Source: Dicyema japonicum (lineage: Eukaryota; Dicyemida; Rhombozoa; Dicyemidae). Taken from it: DNA of 41,075 bases. This document shows, in pieces, positions 993-34,263 of the stretch. How positions within the stretch are numbered: the first letter of the stretch is position 1; each line of letters begins with the position of its first letter. The notes under the pieces were generated by a model. That model saw nothing but the letters and a program-made list of their open reading frames with translations, searched no databases and was not told the origin of the DNA. Where the stretch lies: assembly GCA_011109175.1 (NCBI GenBank), contig RDEW01000074.1, positions 108,451-149,525 of the forward strand, written 5' to 3'. The position numbers and the translations under genes are program-made.

Positions 993-3440
993 GGAGAGGA
1001 AAGCACTATTAAACAAGCACGGGAAGGACAAACGTCCTTCTGCATCCGTTCAACTGAGACTCGGAGTTCAACTCGGGAAACGGAGATTCTTCGCCTAAGA
1101 AAGACTGTACGATCGAAGTTGCTTGAAGGAGGAACCCGATCGGCATTGAAGGCCCTCTCACTCTCAGATGGACCACGCAATCCAACCATTGATACTTACA
1201 AGACGCTATTGGGGAAACATCCACCCTCTCCGAATGACCTACGCCATTGCTCGCCCCCATCAGAAGCGACCCCTTTGACCACGTCGCCTGAGGATGTCAT
1301 CACGGCGTTATGGAACTTTGCACCAAGTAGCTGTGGAGGTCTCGATGGCTTAAGGCCCGGCCATCTTAAAGACCTTATTTCACCGACTATTGGAGACCAA
1401 GCAAGTCGTCTTTCATACTCACTCACTTCTCTTATGAACAGGATATTATCTGGACATTTGCCTGATTTGATACGTCATATCTTGTTTTCGGCTAGTCTGA
1501 TTGCCGTCGACAAGAAGGGAGGTGGAATCCGCCCGATCGCGGTCGGATTCACTTTCAGAAGACTAGCAGCCAAGATTGCTTCCAGATTTTCTACGTCAAT
1601 CTTGTCAAAATCCTTACTTCCCAGTCAAGTTGGAGTCGGAGTTCGTCTTGGATGTGAGGCAGCCGTTCACTCCGTCAGAAGATTCAGGAACAGCAGCATT
1701 CAAGACTTTAAAAGGCACATTATGGTAAAACTGGACATCAAGAACGCTTTTAACAGCTTAAGAAGAGACTGCATTCTGGAGGCCTGCAAGGAAAGATGTC
1801 CGTACATATTTGAACTGGTCAATTATTCATACGGAAAACCTTCATCACTATTGCACGGGGATTTCATAGTTCCATCGTCCTCAGGTGTTCAACAGGGCGA
1901 CCCCCTCGGACCACTGCTGTTCTCCCTCGGCATTGAGAGGATCACGAAGCTCTCTAGATGCCCACTCAACATCTGGTACCTCGATGACGCTGTCTTAGGA
2001 GGTCCCCCGGAAACGGTCTTCCAGGACTTAGAAGTACTCACCCCCGCGCTGTCCGAGGTGGGTCTTCAGTTGAATATAACGAAATGTGAAATAACAAACT
2101 GTGGTCTTGCTGACGATGACTTCTCTTCAATTGTTCAAAAATTTTACTCCTTGTTTCCCGGTGGGATTTCGACCCCTGAAAATGAATTGATTTTTCTTGG
2201 ATCCCCGATCACTAGTAATGCGATGAAGCATGTCCTCCTTGACAAAAAACGACTCCTATGCGATTCGCTGGAAAGATTACAGCTGCTGGACTTGCACACA
2301 GCACTATTCCTATTGAAAAGAAGTCTCAACATCCAGAGAATCTCCTATCTACTAAGGACAGCTCCATATTATTCTCAACTGGAGCTGCTCGAGAATTTTG
2401 ATTTGTCTCTCCTCAGCTCGACGGAGCAAATATTTAATGTCCGATTCGACGATGATACATGGATGCAGGCTACACTCCCAGTTAGATTCGGGGGTCTTGG
2501 AATCCGTCGAACTTTGGACGTCTCACTTCCCGCTCATTTATCATCACTCACGGCCTGCGAACCTTTGGTCAGGAGGATTCTACACTCCCCACCCGAATTC
2601 TCAACTGACCAAGAGATAATCCACGCACGAGAAGCCTGGAATGCCACCAACCTCCCCCTGCCTCCTTCCCAAGATCGCCAGCGAAACCTGGACAACTTAT
2701 TATGCTGGAAATCATTTGGACTACTAGAATCTGCCAATCAGCACCGACGCGCTTGTTTGCTTTCGGGGGCTTCCCCTGAGAGCGGAGCTTGGCTAAACGC
2801 CATCCCCAATGGAGCTTTGGGCACTTTTCTGGATGATGAATGCGTTAGAACTGGTATCTCTCTGCGGCTGGGACTAAAAGTATGTGTACCTCACCCGTGC
2901 CGATGTGGCATCCTGATAGACTGCTATGGCCTGCACCCTCTCGCCTGCAGGAGGAGCGCTGGCAGATCCCCAAGGCACAAGGCTCTGAATGAAATTGTCA
3001 GGCGAGCTATGGATGCTGCTGGATACTCGGCCATTCTTGAACCGGTCGGGTTATGCAGAAGTGACGGGAAACGACCGGACGGGATGACCATATTTCCATT
3101 TGAGGCCGGGAAACCACTGGTTTGGGATGTGACATGTACAGACACGTTCGCCCAGAAAAATCTTCACGAGAGTGCTACAAGGGCCTGTTTAGCATCCGTA
3201 AAGACGGAGAAGGCCAAACTCGTTAAATACGTCGACCTTCCCGATGATGTCAAATTTGTTCCCCTTGCTATGGAGACTTCCGGATCCTATTCCCCCTCTA
3301 CACTCGAGTTTTTCGGACGTCTTGGAAACCGGATCACCTCATACACTGGAGATCTCCGCGAACGCCGCTGGCTATTTGAGCGAATTTCGCTCGCAATTTT
3401 GAGAGGGAACAGCCACGCGGTGAGGGCGGCAACTACCTGA
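993..3440 (+). CDS. 5'-truncated RLE-1 LINE polyprotein (RT + restriction-like endonuclease)
   Basis: The frame is open from 993 (after a TGA at 990-992) to a TGA at 3438-3440. No ATG opens it: position 1119 is TTG. It is therefore probably 5'-truncated and not translated as it stands. Counting residues from 1119: a pre-RT segment with 'GGLDGLRPGHL' near 72; RT block 'KLDIKNAFN' near 204; 'QQGDPLGPLLFSL' near 257; the catalytic box as 'WYLDDAVLGG' near 286, so YLDD rather than the usual YADD. Near 593-610 is a Cys/His cluster ('CRCG' then 'LHPLAC'), followed by 'RPDG' near 651 and 'LVWDVTCTD' near 668. This is the zinc cluster plus PD-(D/E)xK layout of restriction-like endonucleases in R2-group non-LTR retrotransposons. 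There is no internal stop or frameshift over more than 2.4 kb, so it is the youngest-looking element here. The subfamily within the R2/CRE/NeSL-like group is uncertain. Confidence 0.88.
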   Translation, partial: GEESTIKQAREGQTSFCIRSTETRSSTRETEILRLRKTVRSKLLEGGTRSALKALSLSDGPRNPTIDTYKTLLGKHPPSPNDLRHCSPPSEATPLTTSPEDVITALWNFAPSSCGGLDGLRPGHLKDLISPTIGDQASRLSYSLTSLMNRILSGHLPDLIRHILFSASLIAVDKKGGGIRPIAVGFTFRRLAAKIASRFSTSILSKSLLPSQVGVGVRLGCEAAVHSVRRFRNSSIQDFKRHIMVKLDIKNAFNSLRRDCILEACKERCPYIFELVNYSYGKPSSLLHGDFIVPSSSGVQQGDPLGPLLFSLGIERITKLSRCPLNIWYLDDAVLGGPPETVFQDLEVLTPALSEVGLQLNITKCEITNCGLADDDFSSIVQKFYSLFPGGISTPENELIFLGSPITSNAMKHVLLDKKRLLCDSLERLQLLDLHTALFLLKRSLNIQRISYLLRTAPYYSQLELLENFDLSLLSSTEQIFNVRFDDDTWMQATLPVRFGGLGIRRTLDVSLPAHLSSLTACEPLVRRILHSPPEFSTDQEIIHAREAWNATNLPLPPSQDRQRNLDNLLCWKSFGLLESANQHRRACLLSGASPESGAWLNAIPNGALGTFLDDECVRTGISLRLGLKVCVPHPCRCGILIDCYGLHPLACRRSAGRSPRHKALNEIVRRAMDAAGYSAILEPVGLCRSDGKRPDGMTIFPFEAGKPLVWDVTCTDTFAQKNLHESATRACLASVKTEKAKLVKYVDLPDDVKFVPLAMETSGSYSPSTLEFFGRLGNRITSYTGDLRERRWLFERISLAILRGNSHAVRAATT

Positions 3441-10179: not shown

Positions 10180-11002
10180 TTTATTGAGAACCCCAAGATC
10201 ACCAAGAAAGATGTTAAAAAACAAGTGATCTAGCGTCCATAAATTTCCAGACTCTTCTTGGGTGGCTTTCCAATGTCCCGACTGTAGAACGATAGAGCCT
10301 CTGAATGCCTACAAAGGAAGTCTTTAGGACCGATTGAAAGACTTCACAGCATTCGAATCCCTAATGGGTTTCTTGGTTCTTTAAAAATTCCTCGTGGATT
10401 CTCTGAAGGGAGGGGGAGGGTTGTAATAGTATGAAAAACAACCCTTAGCTCACCGTCTGATTGAATTTGTCGAATTTGGATGGGAATACTACAAACCTGC
10501 ATGTGGGGTTGAAACGATGACCTGGTTATATACTCTGGAAATGCATCCGACAGGAGGGAAAAGGGTTTTCTTTATAATTACCTTCAGCACATTCAACTTC
10601 TGGAGTCCCATGGTCAAGACAGTTTTAGCGTGTTGAGAGGTCATTGATGAGTCATAAGTAACCCGGTGAATCTTAAGTTTACTTGATATCAGAATAGGGG
10701 TGCCCCAATTGTAAACTTTAGTCTCACACTTCCTGTAAATATTGTGAATTGTCATTTTGCCGCAGACACCGTAAGAGAATTATTACAGAACCAGCCATGA
10801 TAGGATAGCGGGAGCCGCGAGGTAGTGCCCTGTTCGGCAAGAGACAAGATATTGAATTGAGATTGCCATAGCATAGTCTCCCACGTCGACCAGAAAAGAA
10901 GTCACTCAGCCACATATCTATATTTTGATAAATACAGGACTTTAAAATCTTATTTGTTAGCAGTGGGCTCGAAATAGAGTCGAATGCTTTGTGTATGTCC
11001 AC
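10180..11002 (-). pseudogene. LINE B reverse transcriptase remnant with 3' UTR
   Basis: Minus-strand frames read 'MDIHKAFDSISSPLL' (RT block with the first catalytic Asp), then 'WLSDFFSGRRGRL' and 'ALPRGS', a decayed form of the G-V-P-Q-G motif. A second frame (10755-10489) carries post-RT sequence ('KLNVLKVIIKKTLFPP'). The YADD box is lost between the frames. The 3' part shares the block at about 10190-10230 with the 34551-34610 and 6240-6345 copies. The coding order resembles Jockey/CR1-type LINEs. The 5' end stops abruptly where another LINE on the opposite strand begins (about 11005). Confidence 0.7.
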
Positions 11003-11004
11003 AA

Positions 11005-11600
11005 AGAGTAAGGCTGTGTTATAAATCCAAGATGTGCTACAGTCTATTATTCAACATATTTATGGAAGACTTTCCTTCTCCACAAGACGTTAGGACCAAG
11101 CTGATGATATATGCGGATGACATCTTAATCCTAGACTCATCTTTGAAGGCCTACATCTCTGAGCGACGAATCGGGGCTTTTGTCGACAAAGTCCAGGTTT
11201 GGTGCGATAGGAGAGGGATGAAACTATCCACAGAAAAATCCAGTTACTTGCGAATATGCAGGCTGGGTCGGCACCAGAAAGAGTCCTATACGCTACGGAT
11301 ACCTAGAGTCTCTAGCCTGAAATACCTGGGATTACAGTGGATGGAAGAGGATCGTATCGGAAGGACATCGAGGAGCGGAGGAAGAAGGCCGTTCAAGCGA
11401 TGTTCTGCACCAGAAAACTAATGTTGGATGTCGATACAATGCTCTTTATCTTCCGAATTGTGATTCTTCCAAGACTGATTTACGGATGCGAGGGATGGTT
11501 TTATACTCCTTCGAGAGAAAGGTTTCTCGCTCGCCTTGAGAAAACAAGGCGAGCGGCGATAAAAATATCTCTGGGAGGAAATTACATGAAAGCCTAACTG
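11005..11600 (+). pseudogene. LINE C reverse transcriptase remnant
   Basis: Plus-strand frame reads 'LLFNIFMEDFPSP', then the catalytic box 'MIYADDILILDSSLK' near 11106-11150, then 'KVQVWCDRRGMKLSTEKS' and 'SSLKYLGLQWMEE'. A one-base shift near 11360 moves the frame to 11337-11597, which continues with 'LPRLIYGCEGWFYTP' and 'ARLEKTRRAAIKI'. This is the standard RT palm and thumb order of Jockey-like LINEs. The 'FMEDFPSP.DVRTKL.IYADD' block is shared with the minus-strand copy at 37620-40030. Both are truncated, and here the N-terminal RT blocks and endonuclease are missing. Confidence 0.8.
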
Positions 11601-12870: not shown

Positions 12871-14697
12871 TTATAAATTAGTACTAGATTGCTGAGGGAC
12901 TGGAGTTTTTCTGCATTTTTTGTAAATTAATTCAAAGATGAAGTAGATCACCGTCCCCACCACTGAACAAGCGAGGGTGATGCTGTTATAGTAGAAAGTA
13001 TTAATATTGGCAAATCTACCGGTTAAACAAATTATCTAAACATTCCTTTGTCGAGAAGCGTGCTGGCGTCAATAATGATCCACAAGGCAGTAATCGAGCC
13101 TACCACAAGTCCAAACAGAGTATTCTAAATATGCCAATATGTGGAATACATATTCAGAAATAGGCTTCAAATAAATCACCGAGAAAAGCAGAATAATATC
13201 GGAGACCCTAGGGATCCAAGAATTATGAAGACAACCTTAAAGAATTAGCAAAAGTTACATTCATGGCTTGTTTGGTCATCAAAATGGGGGTCAGTGATAA
13301 TTCCATCACAATCAGACCTAATGTGAAGCCTAGCATTATAACTCAAGCATACAGATTATTCTCAAAACATGAAAAGACATGTTCTCATACTTTTCCTGTT
13401 TATATACCTTCTTGAGATAATAAGGAAGGGTTTGTAGACGACAGTAGTCACGGCATTCAAGCCAGAGGAAAGGGTACTATCGGTAAAGGCTCATTTCCTA
13501 CCTTATTGCCGCGGAAAACATTGTCCCGACGAACATCCCACCGAGTCCTGTATATTCAGAGAGAGAATCTGTCACGAGGTGAAACAGTATCTACATTGAA
13601 TTCCACGTGATTACATCATTACTTTTGTAATTATTTTCCTCAAGCATTTTTTCAGTCAGAACATCTTTAGCGACAATCCCAATCAATGCGCAGAGAACGA
13701 AAAATATGCAGTTTCCAATGAAATGCAAGTATAATGCCCTAAATTGAGTTGGAGGAAAACAATCTGGCTTTTTTCTGAGTCCCCAAACTCAGATATCGCT
13801 GAATCATAGTCTGATTAGTCCCATATATGCCCCCAGTGAGAAGAGTCGAGAACAGCAAAGTCTTGAAAATGCTAATTTTTACTTCAGCCAATCTCACTTG
13901 ACTACATTTGTCTCCGTTTTCCTAGCCGCCTCATTGAGGATAGTAATGATTGGAGTCTTTGCTTTGCTCATCGTAAAGCCCATGATGAGGAGGACACCAA
14001 CCGTTATAAAGCACATTTGAATCACGTCCGTCCAGATAACCCCACTGATTCCACCCTAGCATAAGAAAAGACATAATCTACAATAGTGGTGTATATTATG
14101 CATATGACGGTTATTATGAGGATAGAAGCCCACAGAGGCCATCCACTCACTATTATTATTATAACAAGCAAACATAGGTGGAGGAAATTAGCCGGGACAA
14201 ACATGACTACTGATAGGTAGGCGACCTAGGAATAAGTTAGCTGTCAGACTGTTTGAAAGGTATAAATGGCACAACACAGATTCTCTATTCTCGGAGATTT
14301 GAATCGATTGGTGAATATCTAGAATATAGAAATTGTGAACCTGGAACCCATTGAGTAGCTCAGTTTTAAACAAGTGGGGGATAATCAGTTGGCCAGCGAT
14401 TATAGCTCCGGGGAAATATCCAACAGCCATCCAAAAAAATGAAAAGTGTCTTTCATACGTATGGAAGGCAACTCCAGTGATGAAAATTGCAGATTGGAAA
14501 TTCGCGATGAGGGATAAAGTGCAAGGAATCACTTTCAGAGTCCTGTCCCCGACAATATACCTCTCAAATTGTCTCTAAAAATTCATTCCATCAAATACCG
14601 GGGCGTTTTTTTTAAGTATCCATATTATTATAGCCATTATTAAGGAGCAAGATGGTATAATACAGAATATTACAACATCCACAGTCCCGAATTCCAT
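12871..14697 (-). CDS. SLC5-family sodium/solute symporter, 14 exons, 13 introns of 22-26 nt
   Basis: A membrane cotransporter of the SLC5 (sodium/solute symporter) family, closest by eye to the multivitamin/monocarboxylate branch. ATG at 14697-14695, TAA at 12873-12871, about 504 residues after splicing (family usually 550-670). Introns (plus coordinates): 14575-14598, 14319-14340, 14226-14249, 14150-14173, 14056-14081, 13872-13897, 13739-13760, 13591-13614, 13477-13501, 13330-13352, 13236-13258, 13125-13149, 13016-13041. All are GT...AG. Conserved segments include 'RYIVGDRTLKVIPCTLSLIA' (exon 2), 'GGISGVIWTDVIQ' (after intron 5), 'IYGTNQTMIQRYLSLG' (exon 7), and 'STLSSGLNAVTTVV' split by intron 9. 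Exon 10 (within about 13412-13432) and exon 12 (about 13160-13190) each lack one base, leaving the gene frameshifted unless these are assembly errors. A TATA-like site lies at 14721-14732. Confidence 0.87.
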
Positions 14698-26132: not shown

Positions 26133-27203
26133 CTAAGTGATTCCGACGAATTGGATCAAGGCTCTCATCTTTGCTTGATGCTGATCCTTTGAGCCTACAC
26201 AATTTCGTTGCGGACGAGCACTTCCTTTTTGGCATTGGTGTCCATTTTTGTTTTTTTCGATTAGCTTCTCCATGGGCGTCGGTGATTTAATGTTTTCCCC
26301 TATATACCATCTCTCGGTTAGTTTGAAGGCCCTTTTCTGGGTTGCGGAGATTTTCTGGATGTTCGTATAAGAGGCCAGTGGTCCCCATGAAGTACATGCA
26401 TATGAAATGCATTCGATGTACTGTGAGTAGAGAGCTTTAAGCATAGGGTGATATCCAATTTTCCATAGACCTGTTAGGCAGTTCAGAAGGTTGATTTTCT
26501 TCTCACATTTGTTCAGCACGTTAGTGACGTGTCTCGTAAAGTTCATGTGCGTATCGAAAGTCAGACCCAATATTTTTTGCCATTTGCTGAACGGCAATGC
26601 TCTTCCCTCCGCAGTAACTTCTATTGTCCTGTTCGACAATCTTTTGTCCGAGGTATAGAGAGTTGTAACAGATTTTTCGATATTGATTGACATCGGATTT
26701 TCATTAAACCACTCGAGTAGTCGATCCATGTGGTGTTGTATTCTTTCCGTCGCTGTTTGGGTGTTCTGATCCCGTGAGGCTGAGACGATATCGTCTGCAT
26801 AAGCCAGAAGCAGATCGTCTTCTCCATTCGACGTCGGAATGTCAGCTGTAACTAGGTTGAATAGGAATGGTGATAGCGGCGAACCCTGGGGTACTCCATT
26901 TAGAGAATAAACGGGAGACAGAATGAATATTTCCAATGACACTTTACCTCTCCGTCGGCTAAGGAAGTTTGTTAGCCAGCGTTTGAGATTTTCAGGGATA
27001 TCTGATTGGTAGATTTTCCATGTTAGATTCTTCCTCGGCACAGAGTCGAAAGCTTTGTGGACGTCTAGCGACCATAACACAGTTTTCTGGTGTCTTGGCT
27101 TGTACAGAAATCCAGAGCGAATAAAGTTAGTCAGGGATGTGAGGAAGCTTGTTGTGTACCGATCCTTTTTAAACCCATTCTGGAACGGTTTATCGGAAGT
27201 CTA
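26133..27203 (-). pseudogene. LINE A reverse transcriptase, longest copy
   Basis: An uninterrupted minus-strand frame of about 355 codons reaches a stop at 26133. It carries 'PFQNGFKKDRYTTSFL', then 'WSLDVHKAFDSVPR' (first catalytic Asp), 'NGVPQGSPLSPFLFNL', 'LLLAYADDIVSASRD' (YADD box), 'KWQKILGLTFDTHMNF' and 'QYIECISYACTSWGPLA'. The tail reads 'KLTERWYIGENIKSP' and 'HQAKMRALIQFVGIT'. The block order is that of Jockey/CR1-type LINE RTs. The upstream end is truncated at an in-frame stop near 27203, with no endonuclease. All RT catalytic residues are intact, so this is a relatively young but 5'-truncated insertion. The internal ATG at 27080 is not a natural start. Confidence 0.88.
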
Positions 27204-31030: not shown

Positions 31031-31464
31031 GAAAAGTGGCTTTGCATTTTCTGGGCCGCTTGTCCTCGTCAAAGATGGCCCTGCTGTCGGGATGAGTGAG
31101 AACCCATTGCTTGTCCCCATATTGGTGGATTCTATGTCACTCAAAATACTACCCAGAGGAAAGACTCTCCCAGTCGATAAGTTAGGAATAGTCTGCTGGA
31201 GGAATTAAATGTTGTTCCTGATGTAGACAAAGGCGTCCAGTTTGTCAAAATCACAGTGGGATAGATCACACATAACAATGTGAGGAGCATTCTCTTTCCT
31301 GAAATGACTCAAAAAAATTACCAAAGGGAGCCTCACACTAATTAAAGACACAGAACCGCGTATTATAACCACGTGTCCAGATATCTATATTATCCAGTGG
31401 AGTTACCCCATTTTGTTTCATCCTTTAATATTTGCTTTTAAATATTATTCCGTATGATCGACTC

Positions 31465-31684
31465 AATGATCCAATGGCCACCAAGGATCCACGTGAGACT
31501 GGATGGTTTTGAGATAGTCATTATCAGAGGAAGCAGCATGACATTCAAGCTCACTAAATTAAGTGCTCTTTTACAATGATCCAATGGACACCAAGGATCC
31601 ACGTGAGACTGGATGGTTTTGAGATAGCCATTATCAGAGGAAACAGCATGACATTCAAGCTCACTAAATTAAATGCTCTTTTAA
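31465..31684 (+). repeat. 110-bp tandem duplication
   Basis: Units 31465-31574 and 31575-31684 are near-identical, beginning 'aatgatccaatgg' and ending around 'taagtgctctttt' / 'taaatgctctttt', with only a handful of substitutions. No N separates them, unlike the other direct duplications in this window. Confidence 0.85.
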
Positions 31685-33669: not shown

Positions 33670-34263
33670 TCGCAATGGGGTGGATTCACCCATTGGGTTT
33701 TTTGAAAGAAAGTAGTTTTGCGAAAAAGAGCAATTCTCTGTCATATTCTGGGATGTCACCGTTAACCATTTTTCTGATTAGGTCCGTAATTGATTTGACA
33801 TGATAGCATCCAGCTTCCGAGGTGTAAGTGGAAGTATGGCCCTTAATATGGCCAGGACATAACCCTTCCAAGCTTCTGTGGCGCACTTCGGATTCGGTAA
33901 TGCTTATCTCCGAGGTTCCTTCAAGATTCAAAAACTTTTCATAGTCAATCCGTGCATCTGAGTGCTTCAGTATTAAGGTATTCAAAACCTCNACTTTCCA
34001 AGCTTCCGTGGCGCACTTCGGATTCGGTAATGATTATCTCCGAGGTTTCTTCAAGATTCAAAATCTTTTCATAGTCAATCGGTGCATCTGGATGCTTCAG
34101 TATTAAGGTATTTAAAACCTCGGAGGTACAAAACAATACTGTCTAATCGGACGTGATAACTCGCAAGGCTTCTCGCACGTCACCCTCCAGAAGTTTCCGG
34201 TTTACTCTCTCCTGTAGTTTGCTGGGGACATCTTTGGCGTATGCTCCACTGGTTACGACTTCA
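33670..34263 (-). pseudogene. RLE-1 LINE N-terminal/pre-RT fragment
   Basis: The minus strand reads 'VPSKLQERVNRKLLEGDVRE' and 'ALRVITSD' (about 34230-34145), then 'ISITESEVRHRSLEGLCPGH', 'IRKMVNGDIPEYDRELLFFA' and 'FKKPNG' 'IHPIAIKNYFTRLAAK'. Each segment has a counterpart in order in the 993-3440 ORF ('KLLEGGTRSALKALSLSD', 'GLDGLRPGHL', 'MNRILSGHLPDLIRHILFSA', 'IRPIAVGFTFRRLAAK'). It contains a stop, and part is present twice around the N at 33992. RT catalytic blocks are missing. Confidence 0.7.
33864..34121. repeat. Direct duplication flanking N at 33992
   Basis: 33864-33991 and 33993-34121 are near-identical (both contain 'gcgcacttcggattcggtaa'), separated by exactly one N. Probably an assembly join of two alleles. 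Confidence 0.8.

Follow-up and report, generated by a model that had tools for sequence, protein, structure and literature searches.

A 14-exon SLC5 gene copy with introns of 22 to 26 nucleotides and two frame breaks in the genome of Dicyema japonicum

Dicyemids are tiny animals of octopus kidneys, and Ogino et al. 2010 is reportedly a source cited in connection with their introns. The closest described systems are the miniature introns of D. acuticephalum, D. japonicum and Dicyema sp., which, in the available portions of the published reports, are likewise very short, narrow in range and present several times per gene. These excerpts give a length of 26.2 ± 1.9 nt (n = 16) for introns of Dicyema genes, published in 2007 (PMC2222250), a median length of 27 nt for dicyemid introns, of which roughly two thirds are shorter than 30 nt (PMC6543705), and a genome-wide mean of 38.2 nt for D. 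japonicum, whose published genome measures 67.5 Mb with a GC content of 36.7% (PMC6736024). Introns of comparable size, as quoted in the available part of PMC2222250, are those of Paramecium (20 to 35 nt) and of the Bigelowiella nucleomorph (18 to 21 nt), although both lineages are unrelated to this animal genome. The introns described here are slightly shorter than the dicyemid introns of these excerpts, with a median of 24 nt in the gene under study and 25 nt in control genes. Among the titles listed by a literature search on dicyemids, none names a dicyemid SLC5 gene, and the available portions of two reports contain no primers for dicyemid markers.

Within the window, i.e., the whole stretch of 41,075 nt that was analysed, an SLC5 gene runs on the minus strand from 14697 to 12871 and consists of 14 exons and 13 introns of 22 to 26 nt. 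All 13 GT..AG segments put forward by a sequence-only reading of this DNA were found at the proposed lengths and in the proposed order, on a strand that this reading had not named. Its finer claims were also borne out: the acceptor is TAG in 12 of 13 introns and AAG in intron 11 only, all three phases occur, GGISGVIWTDVIQ directly follows intron 5, and the serine codon of AAI-S-TLSSGLNA is divided by intron 9. The phases are 0, 0, 0, 1, 0, 2, 2, 0 and 2 for introns 1 to 9 and, given one missing base per frame break, 1, 0, 0 and 2 for introns 10 to 13. The features are listed below with the support for each intron, which comes from a spliced profile alignment and from the paralogous loci L037 and L040 and a fragment on contig C123.

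14599..14697, minus strand, exon 1; start codon ATG at 14697-14695 (MEFG...), and the paralogues L037 (MGFG) and L038 (MQFG) align from an equivalent start
14575..14598, minus strand, intron 1; 24 nt, phase 0; spliced alignment and L040
14341..14574, minus strand, exon 2
14319..14340, minus strand, intron 2; 22 nt, phase 0; spliced alignment and L040
14250..14318, minus strand, exon 3
14226..14249, minus strand, intron 3; 24 nt, phase 0; spliced alignment and L040
14174..14225, minus strand, exon 4
14150..14173, minus strand, intron 4; 24 nt, phase 1; spliced alignment and L040
14082..14149, minus strand, exon 5
14056..14081, minus strand, intron 5; 26 nt, phase 0; spliced alignment and L040
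13898..14055, minus strand, exon 6; holds GGISGVIWTDVIQ
13872..13897, minus strand, intron 6; 26 nt, phase 2; spliced alignment; the L040 intron lies four columns off, where the alignment is gapped
13761..13871, minus strand, exon 7
13739..13760, minus strand, intron 7; 22 nt, phase 2; spliced alignment and L040
13615..13738, minus strand, exon 8
13591..13614, minus strand, intron 8; 24 nt, phase 0; spliced alignment and L040
13502..13590, minus strand, exon 9
13477..13501, minus strand, intron 9; 25 nt, phase 2; spliced alignment and L040
13353..13476, minus strand, exon 10; 124 nt, lacks one base (frame break 1) and has a TGA in frame at 13364-13362; exon 10 of L040 has 128 nt
13330..13352, minus strand, intron 10; 23 nt, phase 1 provided that break 1 is counted as the loss of a single base; L040 has a phase-1 intron one column away
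13259..13329, minus strand, exon 11
13236..13258, minus strand, intron 11; 23 nt, phase 0, AAG acceptor; spliced alignment; the L040 intron lies one column off
13150..13235, minus strand, exon 12; 86 nt, frame break 2 (one base short); exon 12 of L040 has 87 nt
13125..13149, minus strand, intron 12; 25 nt, phase 0; spliced alignment and L040
13042..13124, minus strand, exon 13
13016..13041, minus strand, intron 13; 26 nt, phase 2 provided that each break is counted as the loss of a single base; counterparts in L037 and on C123
12871..13015, minus strand, exon 14; stop codon TAA at 12873-12871

Homology was assessed with a 504-residue reading in which an X was placed at each of the two breaks. 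Residues 39-438 match the sodium:solute symporter family PF00474 (SSF) over model positions 1-406 of 406, with 104.8 bits against a cut-off of 22.8 (6e-30). Of 7994 candidates that were scored, at least 749 database proteins matched with E values of 0.001 or less; among the matches listed, the best E value was 1.2e-66 at 28% identity, and identities ranged from 27 to 32%. Most of the named proteins in the best 120 of the at least 749 matches are SLC5A6. Matches to solved chains scored 155 bits for SMVT, 147 for NIS and 145 for SMCT1 versus 52 for SGLT1 and 30 for CHT1; judged by these bit scores rather than by a tree, the gene is nearer the SMVT/NIS/SMCT branch than SGLT and CHT. SMVT (SLC5A6), NIS (SLC5A5) and SMCT1 (SLC5A8) are collinear with residues 3-448, 3-450 and 26-450 of the query, respectively, and the exons align collinearly to SLC5 proteins over most of their length. 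In contrast to these three transporters, the frame of the gene as assembled is broken twice, and its homology does not imply a substrate. The product is a putative sodium-coupled transporter.

The intron set was tested against homologues by spliced alignment of the DNA to a profile built from 15 of the 120 listed ones, all of them animals and for the most part vertebrates; GT..AG introns were permitted at 15 to 60 nt. Using these outside SLC5 proteins only, introns 1 to 9, 11 and 12 were recovered exactly, intron 10 was placed as a 49-nt intron (13390-13342) that absorbs break 1, one frameshift was kept in exon 12, and the alignment ended before intron 13. The score was 374, compared with 30 for the reversed sequence, 33 for the opposite strand and 201 when introns were disallowed. 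When other dinucleotide pairs were substituted for GT..AG, with 15 to 40 nt allowed, GT..AG ranked first of 256 donor/acceptor pairs with 370.4, followed by TG..TA with 324.8, the rest having a mean of 244.5 (standard deviation, 22.1). These tests bear on the idea that the 13 segments are merely a chance set of GT..AG pairs in non-coding DNA. A frame-compatible GT..AG pair of 20 to 29 nt is expected near a single junction with a frequency of 7.5 to 36%, but the product over the 13 junctions is 3.7e-10 in a composition shuffle, a value that is conditional on the junctions and indicative only. Taken with the homology and with the intron phases of a paralogue, the splice tests refute a chance origin, to which we assign a negligible probability.

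The genome, at 64.67 Mb in 191 contigs, holds further SLC5 copies, and their exon-intron structures provide a second line of support. The copy L040 (contig C170), with 12 introns of 21 to 28 nt and neither a frame break nor a stop, is identical to the window protein at 165 of 448 positions (37%). All 12 of its intron phases equal those of introns 1 to 12 of the window gene, with nine introns in the same alignment column, two one column off and one four columns off, whereas the lengths and sequences of the introns differ. Given these 12 matching phases, the introns probably predate the duplication behind this pair, while their sequences have since diverged. L040 has no counterpart of intron 13; however, the copy L037 (C118), which has 12 introns and 8 frame breaks, carries a 26-nt phase-2 intron at this place, with none at the place of intron 10. 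Furthermore, a fragment at C123:562336-562511 matches intron 13 and exon 14 at 81% in a DNA search and at 82% identity over 180 ungapped bases, including an ungapped 26-nt GT..AG counterpart of intron 13. The central proposal of the sequence-only reading, an SLC5 gene of 14 exons with 13 tiny introns of spliceosomal type, is thus upheld by homology, by L040 for introns 1 to 12, and by L037 and the C123 fragment for intron 13.

The same reading had described a hidden gene whose frames join once the introns are removed, and here it needs to be corrected, as an uninterrupted reading frame is not supported. The frames join from exon 1 through exon 9 and into the beginning of exon 10 but not onward to exon 14: the joined exons total 1513 nt, which is no multiple of 3, and by the frames of the neighbouring exons a single base is lacking in exon 10 and another in exon 12. 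As a consequence, the literal spliced reading stops at residue 373, at the TGA at 13364-13362. No path that uses exactly the 13 lengths was found between the ATG and the final stop, which is due to the two frame breaks, and inspection by eye found no other GT..AG pair of fitting length that would spare the conserved parts.

It is conceivable that the breaks are real and are bypassed by unconventional introns or by frameshifting. The 49-nt GT..AG intron returned by the aligner can absorb break 1, and when boundaries were left free (15 to 60 nt), both breaks were closed via segments other than GT..AG: this alignment scored 412, with 13 segments skipped and zero frameshifts, a point against the explanation that we prefer. 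However, nearly any sequence can be fitted under free boundaries, and the scores of 412 and 374 are not comparable because costs differed between the runs. Only one of the 13 free-boundary segments is identical to a GT..AG intron, six lie within 3 nt of one, and the others fall elsewhere; given the incomparable scores, no non-canonical intron was adopted. The 23-nt intron was preferred to the 49-nt one because the unbroken L040 has a phase-1 intron there, and the 49-nt intron would in any case leave break 2 in place. A bypass of this kind is therefore regarded as very unlikely.

This leaves two explanations of more weight, namely, bases missing from the assembly of a functional gene and recent inactivation. 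We lean towards the former. In about 23.4 kb of aligned sequence from L040 and from 10 actin and 10 innexin loci, the innexins including two near-identical duplicates, 13 breaks were counted, so that approximately 0.8 would be expected in 1.5 kb and two are unremarkable. Among the actins, for which 11 loci were run and 10 were distinct, 4 of the 10 carry 5 breaks in total, although these are near-consensus genes; the innexins carry 8 breaks in 4 of 10 loci, including 1 in an innexin that is 70 to 74% identical to an outside protein, and none in the two near-identical duplicates. Such breaks in well-conserved genes argue against treating those of the window gene as signs of decay, as does the homologous frame, which is free of in-frame stops on both sides of the breaks. 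On the other hand, no breaks were found in L040, in 6 of 10 actin loci and in 6 of 10 innexin loci, some of the broken control loci may be pseudogenes (one of the broken actins, L046, also has a stop), and the breaks of the window gene are located only to the level of exons 10 and 12. Both of these exons contain runs of four identical bases, a point in favour of missing bases.

Three actin loci point to a possible homopolymer effect. In L021, L047 and L049, the one-base breaks fall where other copies have one more base in a run of C or G, with CCCC in two loci versus CCCCC in an unbroken one and GGGG in one locus versus GGGGG in two. These breaks look like bases lost at homopolymers, possibly through systematic assembly errors, which favours missing bases over inactivation. 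A lower rate applies to the 19-locus control set used for the intron survey below, with 7 breaks and 1 stop over 20,025 nt, because this set omits the innexins L053, L056, L071 and L080 (3, 2, 1 and 0 breaks) and the actin L028, which is the same gene as L048.

Recent inactivation, in which the lesions in exons 10 and 12 would be real, is a serious contender, though one that we favour less. Relatives of the gene do decay: besides L037 with its 8 breaks, the copy L039 (C171), which spans the gene's 5' part, has 4 breaks and 1 stop. L038 (C109) likewise spans the 5' part, with 5 introns and 1 stop. With an outside profile, in shorter alignments, the breaks number 3 in L037, 2 in L039 and 0 in L038. 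Fragments exist as well, on C123 and at C87:1833327-1833457, the latter with 76% identity to exon 1 and the beginning of exon 2. When the genome was searched at the DNA level, three matches came up, the locus itself and these two fragments, and no second copy of the whole locus. A family with decayed copies leaves room for real lesions. Differences between the window gene and L037 amount to 0.289, 0.200 and 0.615 at codon positions 1, 2 and 3 (460 codons), which is a coding pattern and speaks for a gene copy. No usable dS was obtained for 8 of 10 pairs, and a ninth was implausible (26.5; saturation); for L037 versus L039, a dN of 0.13 and a dS of 0.33 indicate that these two broken copies have not been free of constraint over their whole divergence. 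Our judgement is that, as the cause of the two breaks, sequence error is no less probable than decay.

Taken together, we consider it highly probable that the locus is a gene copy of the SMVT/NIS/SMCT branch, to which the transporters of multivitamins, iodide and monocarboxylates belong, with 13 GT-AG introns, and that its two breaks are most likely either consensus errors or fresh lesions. The major spliceosome would remove the 13 introns as it would those of the other genes of this genome, and we infer that the gene is spliced in vivo. As the sequence stands, exons 10 and 12 each lack one base. Most likely the gene is otherwise coding and its consensus is in error; alternatively, the lesions are fresh and affect one copy in a family in which other copies have decayed.

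The introns had been described as near the lower limit for any eukaryote, but exceptional they are not. In a control set of 19 loci (10 actin, 6 innexin and 3 SLC5) with 55 introns, the median length is 25 nt and 52 of the 55 measure 21 to 29 nt, the others being 36, 67 and 78 nt long; the 13 introns of the window gene all fall at 22 to 26 nt. A size of 21 to 29 nt is therefore usual in this genome, and such introns have been reported for dicyemids since 2007. Since these tiny introns are a known dicyemid kind, the window gene is ordinary for its genome and represents a new copy of that kind rather than a new phenomenon. The genome itself is that of an animal, as judged from innexin and PAX matches above cut-off.

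Among the 68 introns of the window gene and the control set, the donor begins with GTA or GTT in 61, and only 11 have a G at +5. U2 and U6 genes are found above the Rfam cut-off in the genome, and 11 U1-like matches all stay under this threshold, the highest-scoring one by 0.5 bit. In three of four U1-like RNAs that were read, ACTTACCTGG follows the first two bases near the 5' end, and the remaining one differs by one base; the standard ACUUACCUGG is thus kept in three of the four despite the scarcity of G at +5. It is a speculative and rather doubtful idea that, at the 5' end of introns of 21 to 29 nt, little more than GT followed by A or T at +3 serves for recognition. If true, intron length and the exon side of the junction would guide recognition, a mode of splicing at the lower size limit in animals, and the SLC5 family would offer a multi-intron test case.

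Genes of this type escape plain open reading frame calling as well as aligners with the usual minimum intron lengths. Since single-base breaks are common in this assembly, calls of "pseudogene" are unsafe without reads. For intron biology, the work adds a pair of paralogues with 12 matching intron phases.

As for the surroundings of the gene, the GC content of the window is 33 to 49% in 2-kb windows, mostly 34 to 41%; a scan with the bacterial code found no tRNA in the window, and no Rfam family reached the gathering score there. Three of 10 frames scanned, at 993-3437 (plus strand), 10978-11418 (plus strand) and 26136-27200 (minus strand), match the reverse transcriptase domain RVT_1, the other seven being without a Pfam match, and the gene thus sits among LINE-like elements. 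Single Ns at 33992, 35362, 36726, 39823 and 40445 each separate two copies arranged head to tail, about 130 to 870 nt long, with substitutions between them at 2.6 to 7.3% of positions. These five sites look like scaffold joins at which overlapping contig ends were left unmerged. At 31464-31683, a 110-nt head-to-tail duplication with 4 differences has no N between its copies.

A further observation concerns the databases searched. No protein named as dicyemid was found among the listed matches to the SLC5 and innexin queries. The six best innexin matches among those listed, P0121 to P0126, are labelled Octopus sinensis; for the first innexin query, P0121 was 50% identical and the next species among the matches listed, Haliotis, 33%. 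P0121 is 73% identical to an innexin on contig C13 of this genome. According to the available part of the genome report, D. japonicum was collected from Octopus sinensis (PMC6736024), and for this reason P0121 to P0126 are probably dicyemid contamination of the octopus assembly.
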